A DNA stretch of 64,000 bases. It comes from Deltaproteobacteria bacterium (GTDB lineage Bacteria; Desulfobacterota; Desulfuromonadia; Geobacterales; Geobacteraceae). Shown here piece after piece: positions 13,504-46,316 of this stretch. The notes below the pieces were generated by a model, which was not told the DNA's origin, did not search any database, and saw only the letters and a program-made list of their open reading frames with translations. Both the position numbers and the translations under genes were made by a program. The stretch spans positions 1 through 64,000 of the forward strand of contig JAJZUQ010000008.1 in NCBI GenBank assembly GCA_021848385.1. The letters run 5' to 3'. The first letter of the stretch is position 1. Each line of letters begins with the position of its first letter.

Positions 13504-13836
13504 ATGACGATGGACAAGCGGCAGGAATCCTACGAAGTCAACCTGTTCAATCCCAAACAGGGATACATGCGCGGCGAGGTGGTGCTTATCCTGGCCATCC
13601 TTGTTGGTTGGGGGGTGGTGAACTTCGGATTCCAGGCGGTACTCTGGCTTCTGGCCGAGAATCCCCTTGGTGAAGGGATTTTTACCCGCCTCACCTTTTT
13701 CAACCTTCCCTACCACTTCTGGTTCACCGCCCAGTTTCTCCCCCTCTGGTTCATCATCCTCTGCGTGATTTTCAATATCTGCCTCGACCGTCTCACCGAG
13801 CGCCACAGCAGAAGGAGAGACAGGACCTATGAATAG
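13504..13836 (+). CDS. DUF4212 small membrane subunit of sodium/solute symporter
   Basis: Small two-TM protein directly preceding and overlapping an SSS symporter; RGEVVLILAILVGWGVVNFGFQ, WFTAQFLPLWFIILC. Confidence 0.85.
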   Translation: MTMDKRQESYEVNLFNPKQGYMRGEVVLILAILVGWGVVNFGFQAVLWLLAENPLGEGIFTRLTFFNLPYHFWFTAQFLPLWFIILCVIFNICLDRLTERHSRRRDRTYE

Positions 13837-15358
13837 CGATCCGGTGAAATTCTGGCCGCTTCTTATTGTCACAGGAGTGCTGGTATCCTTTGTGCTGGCC
13901 GGTTTGCGTGCCAAGTCCCAGGAAATGTCCGATTACGGTTTTTCCGGACGCTATATCGGGCGTATCGGCGGCGGGGCGGCAATTGCCAGCAATTGGATGA
14001 GCGCAGCCAGCTTTCTCGGCATGGCCGGCCTCCTCTATCTCCAGGGATACTTCGCCCTCGCGTACGTCATCGGCTGGACCGGCGGCTATGTCCTGCTCCT
14101 GGTCCTGATGGCGGGGCAGATCCGTCGATTCGGCAAATACACCGCCCCCGATTTTGTCGGCGCCCGCTATGATTCCGACGTCGCCAGGCTCCTGGCGGCG
14201 CTCATCTCCATAACCATATCGGTCATATACTGTGTCGCCCAGTTCAAGGGGATCGGCATGCTGTTCGGCTGGCTGTTCGGCGTCGATTACGGACGGGGGG
14301 TCGTCCTTGGCGGGGCGGTGGTGGTCTGCTACGTGGTGGTCTGCGGCATGCTCGGGGTGGCCCGCAACCAGCAGCTGCAGTACTTTGTCGTCATCGTCTC
14401 CTTCATCCTCCCCCTCATGTTCCTGGCCCACCGGTTCGGCTATTTCTGGCTCCTTCCCCAGTTCGGTTACGGCGAGGGGATCCAGGATCTGGCGACGGAA
14501 TTCAATATCAACTTTACCGCCCCCTTTGCCAGCGGCTCCCTGTTCCAATGGGTCGCCCTCTGTTTTACCCTCATGGTCGGCACGGCCGGGCTCCCCCACG
14601 TCCTTTCCCGCTTCTACATCCTTCCCAATATCCGGGATGCGCGGTGGAGCGTGGTATGGGGGCTGTTCTTCATCGCCCTCATCTACTGGTCGGCACCCGC
14701 CTATGCCGTCTTCGCCCGCCTGCTGGAAGCACGGGGAGGATACATCCCCGATCCGGTGGCAGCCGGCAAGATGGCCGACATCATGGTGCTCAAGACGGCG
14801 GTGATGGGAGGAGTGCCGGTCTGGCTGACCGGATTACTGGCCGCCGGCGCCGTAAGTGCCGCTTTCTTCACCGTCACCGGGCTCCTCATGACCGGTGCCT
14901 CATCCCTTTCCCACGATATCTATTACCGGTTGATCAACCCCCAGGCTTCGGAGTCGCGGAAAATGGCGATTGCCAAGGGGGGAACCCTGGCCCTGGCCGC
15001 CCTGGTGCTGATTATCTCCCTCCGGCCGCCTGCGCTCATAGCGGAAATAACGGCGGTCGCCTTTGCCCTCGCCGGTAACACCATTTTCCCCGCCTTCCTG
15101 CTTGGTATATGGTGGGGGCGTGCCAACCGTTACGGTGTTATCGCCGGTATGGTGCTGGGTGTCATGATAACCTTTTCCGCGCCGCTCTGTGGGAATGCCA
15201 TTCCCCTGGTAGCGAGAATCTTTCCGATCACTTCGTCGGCCTTCTGCGGGGCGCCGCTGGTAGTACTCGTCATGGTGGTGGTTTCGCTCCTGACCCCCCC
15301 TCCATCGGAGGAAATGAGACGTTTCCTGGCCGAAGTGGTCCACGGCCATCTTGACTAG
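13829..15358 (+). CDS. Sodium:solute symporter (SSS family, acetate/ActP-like)
   Basis: Multi-TM; GRYIGRIGGGAAIASNWMSAASFLGMAGLLY, GTAGLPHVLSRFYILPN. Confidence 0.88.
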   Translation: MNSDPVKFWPLLIVTGVLVSFVLAGLRAKSQEMSDYGFSGRYIGRIGGGAAIASNWMSAASFLGMAGLLYLQGYFALAYVIGWTGGYVLLLVLMAGQIRRFGKYTAPDFVGARYDSDVARLLAALISITISVIYCVAQFKGIGMLFGWLFGVDYGRGVVLGGAVVVCYVVVCGMLGVARNQQLQYFVVIVSFILPLMFLAHRFGYFWLLPQFGYGEGIQDLATEFNINFTAPFASGSLFQWVALCFTLMVGTAGLPHVLSRFYILPNIRDARWSVVWGLFFIALIYWSAPAYAVFARLLEARGGYIPDPVAAGKMADIMVLKTAVMGGVPVWLTGLLAAGAVSAAFFTVTGLLMTGASSLSHDIYYRLINPQASESRKMAIAKGGTLALAALVLIISLRPPALIAEITAVAFALAGNTIFPAFLLGIWWGRANRYGVIAGMVLGVMITFSAPLCGNAIPLVARIFPITSSAFCGAPLVVLVMVVVSLLTPPPSEEMRRFLAEVVHGHLD

Positions 15359-15534
15359 TGTCCATCCGGAAACTCCGGATGAGACACTATCGGTTTCCAA
15401 TTCGGAAACGAGGAGTTTTTCGTCCTGGCAAGGAAAACGAGGGGATGCGCGGAGGCGTACGTCGTTACGCCGCACAAGCAAACCCGATGGTTGACGCCGC
15501 CAGGGCGGAAAAGAACCGTTTCCGGATGGAAAAT
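15359..15534. mobile_element. MITE-like structured insertion with terminal inverted repeats and GACTAG direct repeats
   Basis: TIR tccatccggaaac (15361-15373) / gtttccggatgga (15518-15530); GACTAG at 15353-15358 and 15535-15540. Confidence 0.65.
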
Positions 15535-15552
15535 GACTAGAAGGAGAATGCC

Positions 15553-16785
15553 ATGTCTATGTTCCCGGTAAACAAGGGGGGCGATATCCTTGCCTGGCGC
15601 GACACGGTGGAACTGGTTGACGGGGTGAAGCGGCAGCTGGCGCAAAAGATGGCCTATCTTCTCGATGGTGACGAACTTTTATTGTTGCACGGTCTCCAGG
15701 AACGGATCGCCGATGAAATGGCCGTCGAATCGCGGTTTGCCGAGGAGGTCGAGCAGGTTCTGGCTGCACTGGCGACGGCAGGGACGGTAGATGAGATGGT
15801 TGTCGCTTATCGACACGGCCGGCAGCTGTCGTCTGACTATTTCGACCGGCGCGGGTCTGTTCTGACGGTTCAGTCGCTCTGCATCAGGCTACAGGACCGA
15901 TTGACCTGCCGTGCGGTGCACCTTGCCGGCGAATGGATGGAGCGGAGCGGTTTCGGCCCGCCCCCTGCTCCGTACTGCTGGTTCGCATTCGGAGGAGCGG
16001 GTCGAGAGGAGGGTACCGTTGCCGGGAACTTCAACTCCTTGCTTGTTCATGGAGAGGTGCATGGCGAAAGCGCTGCGTACTTCGCAGGGTTTTCCCTGAG
16101 GGTAAACGCTATCCTCGAAAATTGCGGCGTCAAGAGTGTGGGTGGCATTACCCCCGTGCATCCTTCCTGGCGGGGGAGCCTCAACGAATGGCGTACGCGC
16201 CTGATCGGGGGTGCTTCCGGTGAAAAAACGGCGGAAGACCTCTCGTTCCTGGTGCGGTTTGCCGACCTGCGCCTGGTGAGCGGGGATGCGACCCTCTGTG
16301 GCGAGACGATAAACCTGATCCGCAGCCTGTTCGAGTTCAACCGCCACGGCTTTGGCGAAGTGGCCCGCGTCACGGCGGAAATGGCGACAGGACTCGATTT
16401 TTTCGGTCGGTTGCGGTTGGAAAAGGGGGGGGAGCATCGGGGCGAATTCAATCTGGAACAGTATGCGTTGAGTCCGCTGATGGAAAACATCAGGATAATG
16501 GCGGTACGCGCCGACGTGCCGCTGACCGCCAACGTCGGGCGGATCAAGGGGCTTCTGGGAAAAGGATACCTGGGTGTCGATCTGTCCCAACGGCTGTTGC
16601 GTGCCTACCATGACTTTACCACCCTGAAACTGAAGGCGGAGATGCGTCGCATTGGTGGGGGCGAGGGGAGCTTCCTCAAGTCGGAAGAACTCGATGACCG
16701 GGAGCTGGACTCCTTGAAAGAGGGGATGGAGGCGGTGGTTAACCTGCAGCGGATAGTCTACCAGAGATTTGTCGTCAGCAGCTAG
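15553..16785 (+). CDS. DUF294-family nucleotidyltransferase-like protein with degenerate active site
   Basis: WFAFGGAGREEGTVAGNFNSLLV corresponds to family motif GSxGRxEqtlxTDQDNALI; DUF294 C-terminal region; downstream of SSS symporter. Confidence 0.7.
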   Translation: MSMFPVNKGGDILAWRDTVELVDGVKRQLAQKMAYLLDGDELLLLHGLQERIADEMAVESRFAEEVEQVLAALATAGTVDEMVVAYRHGRQLSSDYFDRRGSVLTVQSLCIRLQDRLTCRAVHLAGEWMERSGFGPPPAPYCWFAFGGAGREEGTVAGNFNSLLVHGEVHGESAAYFAGFSLRVNAILENCGVKSVGGITPVHPSWRGSLNEWRTRLIGGASGEKTAEDLSFLVRFADLRLVSGDATLCGETINLIRSLFEFNRHGFGEVARVTAEMATGLDFFGRLRLEKGGEHRGEFNLEQYALSPLMENIRIMAVRADVPLTANVGRIKGLLGKGYLGVDLSQRLLRAYHDFTTLKLKAEMRRIGGGEGSFLKSEELDDRELDSLKEGMEAVVNLQRIVYQRFVVSS

Positions 16786-46231: not shown

Positions 46232-46316
46232 CTCTTCGGCAGCTCGGCCATCTTTCCCGGAACAAAGATCCGTCGCTTTCCGACTCCTCCTCGCGGAGGG
46301 TCAGCGTTTCGGTGGA
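46232..46316 (-). ncRNA. GEMM-I-like (cyclic-dinucleotide) riboswitch candidate in the 5' leader of the Kelch-type gene
   Basis: minus strand: gaaacgctgaccctccGCGAggaggagtcggaaagcgacggatctttgttccgggaaagatggccgagctgccgaa; GNRA-capped stem, AAAGC core, GCCGAGCTGCCG receptor-like end. Confidence 0.55.

Follow-up and report, generated by a model that had tools for sequence, protein, structure and literature searches.

The window, by which we mean the whole stretch analysed here, comprises 64,000 nucleotides (positions 1-64,000 of the forward strand of contig JAJZUQ010000008.1, assembly GCA_021848385.1) from a Deltaproteobacteria bacterium of the Geobacteraceae. Its genome is labelled G000 below, and the three congeners are G001, G002 (Geobacter sp. 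H2geo) and G003. The gene order at the locus is DUF4212, sodium:solute symporter, DUF294 nucleotidyltransferase and TIM-barrel protein, and a short non-coding element with inverted ends lies between the second and the third gene. The features discussed in the following are:

13504..13836, plus strand: DUF4212 small membrane protein, upstream gene of the presumed operon
13829..15358, plus strand: sodium:solute symporter (PF00474), 509 aa, unchanged by the insertion
15352..15357: left copy of the target-site duplication TGACTA, single in the empty site
15356..15358, plus strand: symporter stop codon TAG (TA belonging to the duplication, G opening the element)
15356..15389, plus strand: left-end hairpin TAGTGTCCATCCGGA-AAC-TCCGGATGAGACACTA, from fold prediction
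15358..15533, plus strand: MITE, non-coding, 176 bp; the place is empty in H2geo (G002), G001 and G003
15358..15373, plus strand: left terminal inverted repeat (TIR) GTGTCCATCCGGAAAC, identical to the 3' end of the ISNCY-family insertion sequences (ISs) L099 and L100
15392..15409, plus strand: small inner hairpin GGTTTCC-AATT-CGGAAAC
15404..15523, plus strand: structured core; hairpins of the same dispersed family, lacking these ends, lie at about two dozen further places in the genome
15518..15533, minus strand: right TIR, reading TTTTCCATCCGGAAAC inward; the family consensus is GTTTCCATCCGGAAAC, from which the terminal base deviates here
15534..15539: right copy of the target-site duplication TGACTA
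15541..15546, plus strand: ribosome-binding site AAGGAG of the DUF294 gene, intact, just beyond the duplication
15553..16785, plus strand: DUF294/DUF294_C putative nucleotidyltransferase gene, 194 nt after the symporter stop, formerly 12

Positions 15352-15540 read TGACTA + GTGTCCATCCGGAAAC ... GTTTCCGGATGGAAAA + TGACTA G, with 176 bp between the two duplications. The direct repeat as such extends over 7 bp (TGACTAG, 15352-15358 and 15534-15540); comparison with other copies assigns its first six bases to the target-site duplication and the G to the element, as its first base. A preliminary description of this DNA had proposed a segment of about 176 bp with TIRs, two internal hairpins and flanking GACTAG repeats. 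The segment and both hairpins are confirmed, each feature lying at most one base from where it had been placed; the repeat is real as well, but the duplication proper is TGACTA and begins one base further left. The 16-bp ends are imperfect inverted repeats, matching at 14 of 16 positions in the window copy and at 15 of 16 in the consensus, whose terminal base is G at both ends when read inward. Their cores, TCCATCCGGAAAC, at 15361-15373 and, inverted, at 15518-15530, are the sole exact matches in the 64-kb window. Since the right terminal base of the window copy departs from the consensus, this copy may itself be immobile. The element is short, multicopy (eight full-length copies in the genome) and non-coding, its 176 bp being too short for a transposase, and the RNA fold predicted for its whole length has an energy of -93 kcal/mol (z = -8.3).

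Comparison with relatives reveals the locus in its unoccupied state. Geobacter sp. H2geo (PJFC01000005.1, contig C12 of G002) has CATCTTGACTAGAAGGAGAGAGCCATG at this place, with one target copy and no element. The empty site sought in relatives is present in all three congeners, where TAG is followed by ATG 12-13 nt later, and G037, from another genus, likewise has a tight stop-to-start gap of 12-13 nt. These four genomes support the earlier proposal that a MITE-like element entered a junction in which stop, RBS and start had lain close together, and the junction that the proposal had obtained by deleting the element on paper (CTTGACTAGAAGGAG) is the actual H2geo sequence. Some more distant genera have longer spacers at the locus, which bear no resemblance to the element. 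No spacer alignable with it was thus encountered in distant relatives, and other elements with these TIRs do exist, the two points on which the proposal had been left to stand or fall. Judging from these alignments, the window insertion is younger than the split from H2geo. Empty sites in congeners were also found for the four other copies tested (L002, L005, L006 and L008). A few insertion sites are common to congeners (L041/L042 and L011/L049/L211, judged by flanks and flanking frame), so that some insertions are older than the species.

The element belongs to a family. The left end GTGTCCATCCGGAAAC occurs exactly at 7 sites in the genome, compared with 0 for the reversed pattern. Besides fragments, the genome contains eight full-length copies, the other seven being 93-97% identical to the window copy, and an element of 174-177 bp with the same interior is present in G002, in G003 and in the genera g7, g11, g13 and g14. 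The copies in G001 have extra bases; in L041 (G001:C11:243882-244134), about 77 of them, derived from another repeat, lie within the apical loop of the core. Among the 26 copies with defined ends, 15 are flanked by an exact 6-bp duplication and 5 more by one with a single-base difference, whereas random flank pairs are identical over 6 bp in only 2 of 9726 cases. The target consensus across copies is TANNTA, and the duplications in other genera include TAGTTA, TATTTA and TAAATA. Flank comparison gave no clear duplication at the copies L002, L008, L045 and L074. The further copies with the same TIRs and 6-bp duplications that the preliminary description had recommended looking for are therefore found both in the same genome and in other genera. 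Taken at the sequence level, these data provide good support for a new, widespread Geobacteraceae MITE family of a known kind, whose insertion habit, taken up below, is unusual.

Several length and interior variants were observed alongside the full-length copies. At the L004 site (G000:C7:44998-45174, with L153 in G002 and L154 in G003), the sequence enclosed by identical (C)AGGTTA flanks differs in length among three species: one has 176 bp, another some 41 bp, which amounts to the left hairpin, and the third a palindrome of 30 bp that consists of nothing but the two end repeats. This series suggests that the element has shrunk through internal deletion or, alternatively, that two joined ends form a minimal unit. 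Very short elements, barely extending beyond the terminal hairpin and in some cases with repeated flanks, are seen at L060, L061, L063, L067, L069 and L078; L061 has about 57 bp and TAAACTA flanks, and L069 is a palindrome. In genus g13, elements of about 205 bp (L068, L075, L076, L194 and L197) have the same type of end around a wholly different interior, which indicates that several MITE families have these ends in common. The genomes of g13, g14 and g7 contain dozens of such ends.

The same ends are carried by autonomous elements (L099, L100, L101 and others). Complete ISs of 1663-1673 bp are found in another family of the order, two of them with the exact MITE consensus ends. In L099 and L100, GTGTCCATCCGGAAAC lies at the 3' end of the transposase gene and GTTTCCATCCGGAAAC at its 5' end: on the transposase strand the elements start with GTTTCC and end, inverted, with GTGTCC, which are the right and left ends of the MITE, respectively, and reproduce the asymmetry of its consensus. 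Duplications around ISs of this kind are TTTCTA, TAGTTA and TAACTA. The transposases of L099 and L100 are 73% identical to that of an IS in G014, a genome of the window's own family; the latter IS ends in GTTTCCGTCCGGAAAC and its transposase scores 473 bits (8e-142) against NF033593 (ISNCY). Intact ISs with exact ends were found only in the other family of the order, G014 being a near match, and in G033 a decayed ISNCY transposase adjoins a TIR with one mismatch. ISNCY elements with these ends probably belong to the ISDol1 group.

Compared with the ISNCY-family ISs (NF033593), the element has in common the 16-bp ends, their order and the 6-bp TANNTA duplication; it differs in the missing transposase gene, in size (176 bp vs about 1670) and in its unrelated interior, clear similarity being confined to the terminal 16 bp. 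Its classification as an ISNCY insertion sequence proper was rejected since it encodes no transposase; with no coding capacity, it is better regarded as a derivative or parasite of the family than as a member. The search for a cognate transposase, also recommended earlier, was successful in identifying the family, but neither the window's genome nor its three congeners yielded an ISNCY transposase. The element therefore has the appearance of a MITE that was moved by an ISNCY element now lost; the assembly is 93.8% complete and consists of 122 contigs, so a copy may have been missed. On this comparison of ends and targets, mobilisation in trans by an ISNCY transposase is probable. Our literature search on ISNCY and MITE papers returned no report of ISNCY-derived MITEs, and the link between a widespread Geobacteraceae MITE family and an ISNCY transposase is one for which we found no earlier description. 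Three Y1_Tnp (RAYT-like) genes were also observed in the window's genome (G000:C108:64629, C122:184 and C4:47901), and Y1_Tnp occurs in 3 of the 4 genomes of the genus.

The interior has a different affinity. Positions 15404-15523 are a member of a hairpin family dispersed over the genome without MITE ends (including L012-L028). In an alignment of 15 dispersed hairpins, 30 of the 42 pairs drawn have changes on both sides, and 91.9% of the paired cells are matched, compared with 76% in shuffled alignments (500 shuffles, all below the observed values); upon sliding the alignment, pairing drops to 36-47%. This compensatory change speaks for a fold that is maintained, either by selection or by hairpin-templated correction. 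An Rfam search of the element gave nothing above the gathering score. In 2009, 24 predicted short RNAs with a common palindrome were described in G. metallireducens (PMC2700814, Additional file 4, Fig. S1). They resemble the family described here in their intergenic position and in the central palindrome GRCGTAGCGCTGCTACGCC, which, as taken from the figure caption on which the comparison rests, occurs exactly in the dispersed cores, while the MITE core contains the variant GGCGTACGTCGTTACGCC; they differ in that the caption presents them without IS ends. Most likely, ISNCY ends came to surround one copy of the dispersed family. The opposite course, in which the dispersed hairpins would be old MITEs without ends, is less likely, as decaying copies should lose pairs instead of replacing one pair with another. 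The MITE may thus enclose, and spread, a member of a pre-existing structured intergenic family.

Collectively, we hold with high confidence that the segment is a non-autonomous MITE with ISNCY ends, which would have been moved in trans by an IS now lost, inserted at the symporter stop, and built around a captured core. A full-length ISNCY IS, later lost from the genome, would supply the DDE transposase; this enzyme would insert the element at a TANNTA-like site (TGACTA) overlapping the symporter TAG, duplicating six bases; and the interior would be a copy of the dispersed hairpin, rather than IS sequence, enclosed between IS ends. As the element begins with G and the duplication ends in TA, the TAG is regenerated and the symporter remains unchanged, and the ribosome-binding site of DUF294 is kept because it lies just outside the duplication.

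The enzyme is the point at which a different reading can enter, namely that the element is mobile but was moved by, for example, a Y1/RAYT-type transposase and resembles ISNCY ends by convergence. Such genes are present in the window's genome, where ISNCY genes were not found, and the palindromic core contains a GGAG-hairpin motif. However, complete ISNCY ISs have the 16 identical terminal bases of each consensus end in the same left-right asymmetry, together with the same 6-bp TANNTA duplication, and to our knowledge neither duplications nor terminal inverted repeats, both of which the element has, are expected from Y1 transposition; we regard this reading as improbable. Even less weight is given to the view that the spacer is ancestral and functional, serving the operon as a regulatory RNA or attenuator, and that the congeners have lost it. 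The strong structure of the core, its covariation across dispersed copies and the description of the dispersed family as predicted short RNAs in the caption cited above (PMC2700814) would fit such a function, yet the junction is tight and without remnant in the three congeners and G037, a 6-bp duplication flanks the segment, and the same element is found at unrelated loci.

Identity with a MITE already known from Geobacter was also considered. G033, which we take to be G. uraniireducens Rf4, has two near-identical pst operons, one of them with an insert of about 235 bp whose ends are CAGCGTTGTCCGGTTTGG and which is assumed to stand for the MITE Chunjie. This insert differs from the window element in ends, flanks and interior and has no meaningful similarity to it, so that identity with Chunjie, or a variant of it, was rejected as scarcely credible, and given the lack of relationship in ends and interior we regard the window element as a new MITE family. 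What the two do have in common, according to the passage on Chunjie in PMC10969869 (reported in 2008 by Chen et al. from inside an operon of G. uraniireducens), is the bacterial family, a similar size and a position within an operon that is not destroyed. The Correia element and other bacterial MITEs are likewise short and non-coding, with terminal inverted repeats, duplications and a strong fold (PMC10969869), but have other ends and another parent IS.

The junction with the symporter deserves separate consideration. In the empty site the gene ends in ...GAC TAG, and after insertion the stop is formed by the TA of the duplication and the G of the element, which at this locus is indistinguishable from the target's own G. 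The earlier view that the left repeat supplies the existing stop codon is therefore correct for the TA, which comes from the target, and not for the G, which the element supplies. Alignments lead to the same reading at L005, L006 and L008, where TAG is already present in the H2geo empty site. In 12 of 29 independent elements with duplications, a reading frame of 120 codons or more, according to simple gene calls, terminates exactly at the junction stop; when every TIR hit whose junction reads TAG is counted, 24 have the stop in that frame vs 3 and 2 in the other two. The background coincidence with a stop codon is 5/52 for non-coding TANNTA sites and 61/317 for a looser motif, against which 12/29 is enriched with p = 0.001 and 0.008, respectively, and mere chance was rejected on both comparisons. 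Active targeting is not claimed, because the magnitude of the enrichment varies with the background used and with the simple gene calls; selection may account for some or all of it, since in these genomes gene ends hold A+T-rich targets and insertion there is harmless. We tentatively raise the possibility, doubtful as it is, of an insertion habit fitted to stop codons, in which TA-ending targets, six duplicated bases and the G at either terminus would favour gene ends and rebuild TAG. If so, the MITE would spread along operons with upstream proteins intact and would bring a structured RNA hairpin into the spaces between cistrons. We know of no such habit in the Correia element or comparable MITEs of bacteria. 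That stop codons are so often restored also hints at how elements of this kind can survive where genes are densely packed.

Regarding the consequences for the operon, scans for sigma-70 promoters and intrinsic terminators across the junction gave no match. Folding of a longer stretch pairs part of the DUF294 ribosome-binding site with downstream sequence in the minimum-energy structure and leaves most of the site unpaired in the centroid. Translational coupling of symporter and DUF294 is expected to be lost, as the gap has grown from 12 to 194 nt, and independent initiation of DUF294 is predicted to be still possible and little affected. The DUF294 protein is likely a regulator of the transporter, and related species provide a natural experiment, with the same gene cluster present with or without a strongly folding 182-nt spacer. 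Elsewhere in the window, a c-di-GMP-I riboswitch (RF01051, 39.7 bits, Rfam) was detected at 46235-46315 on the minus strand.
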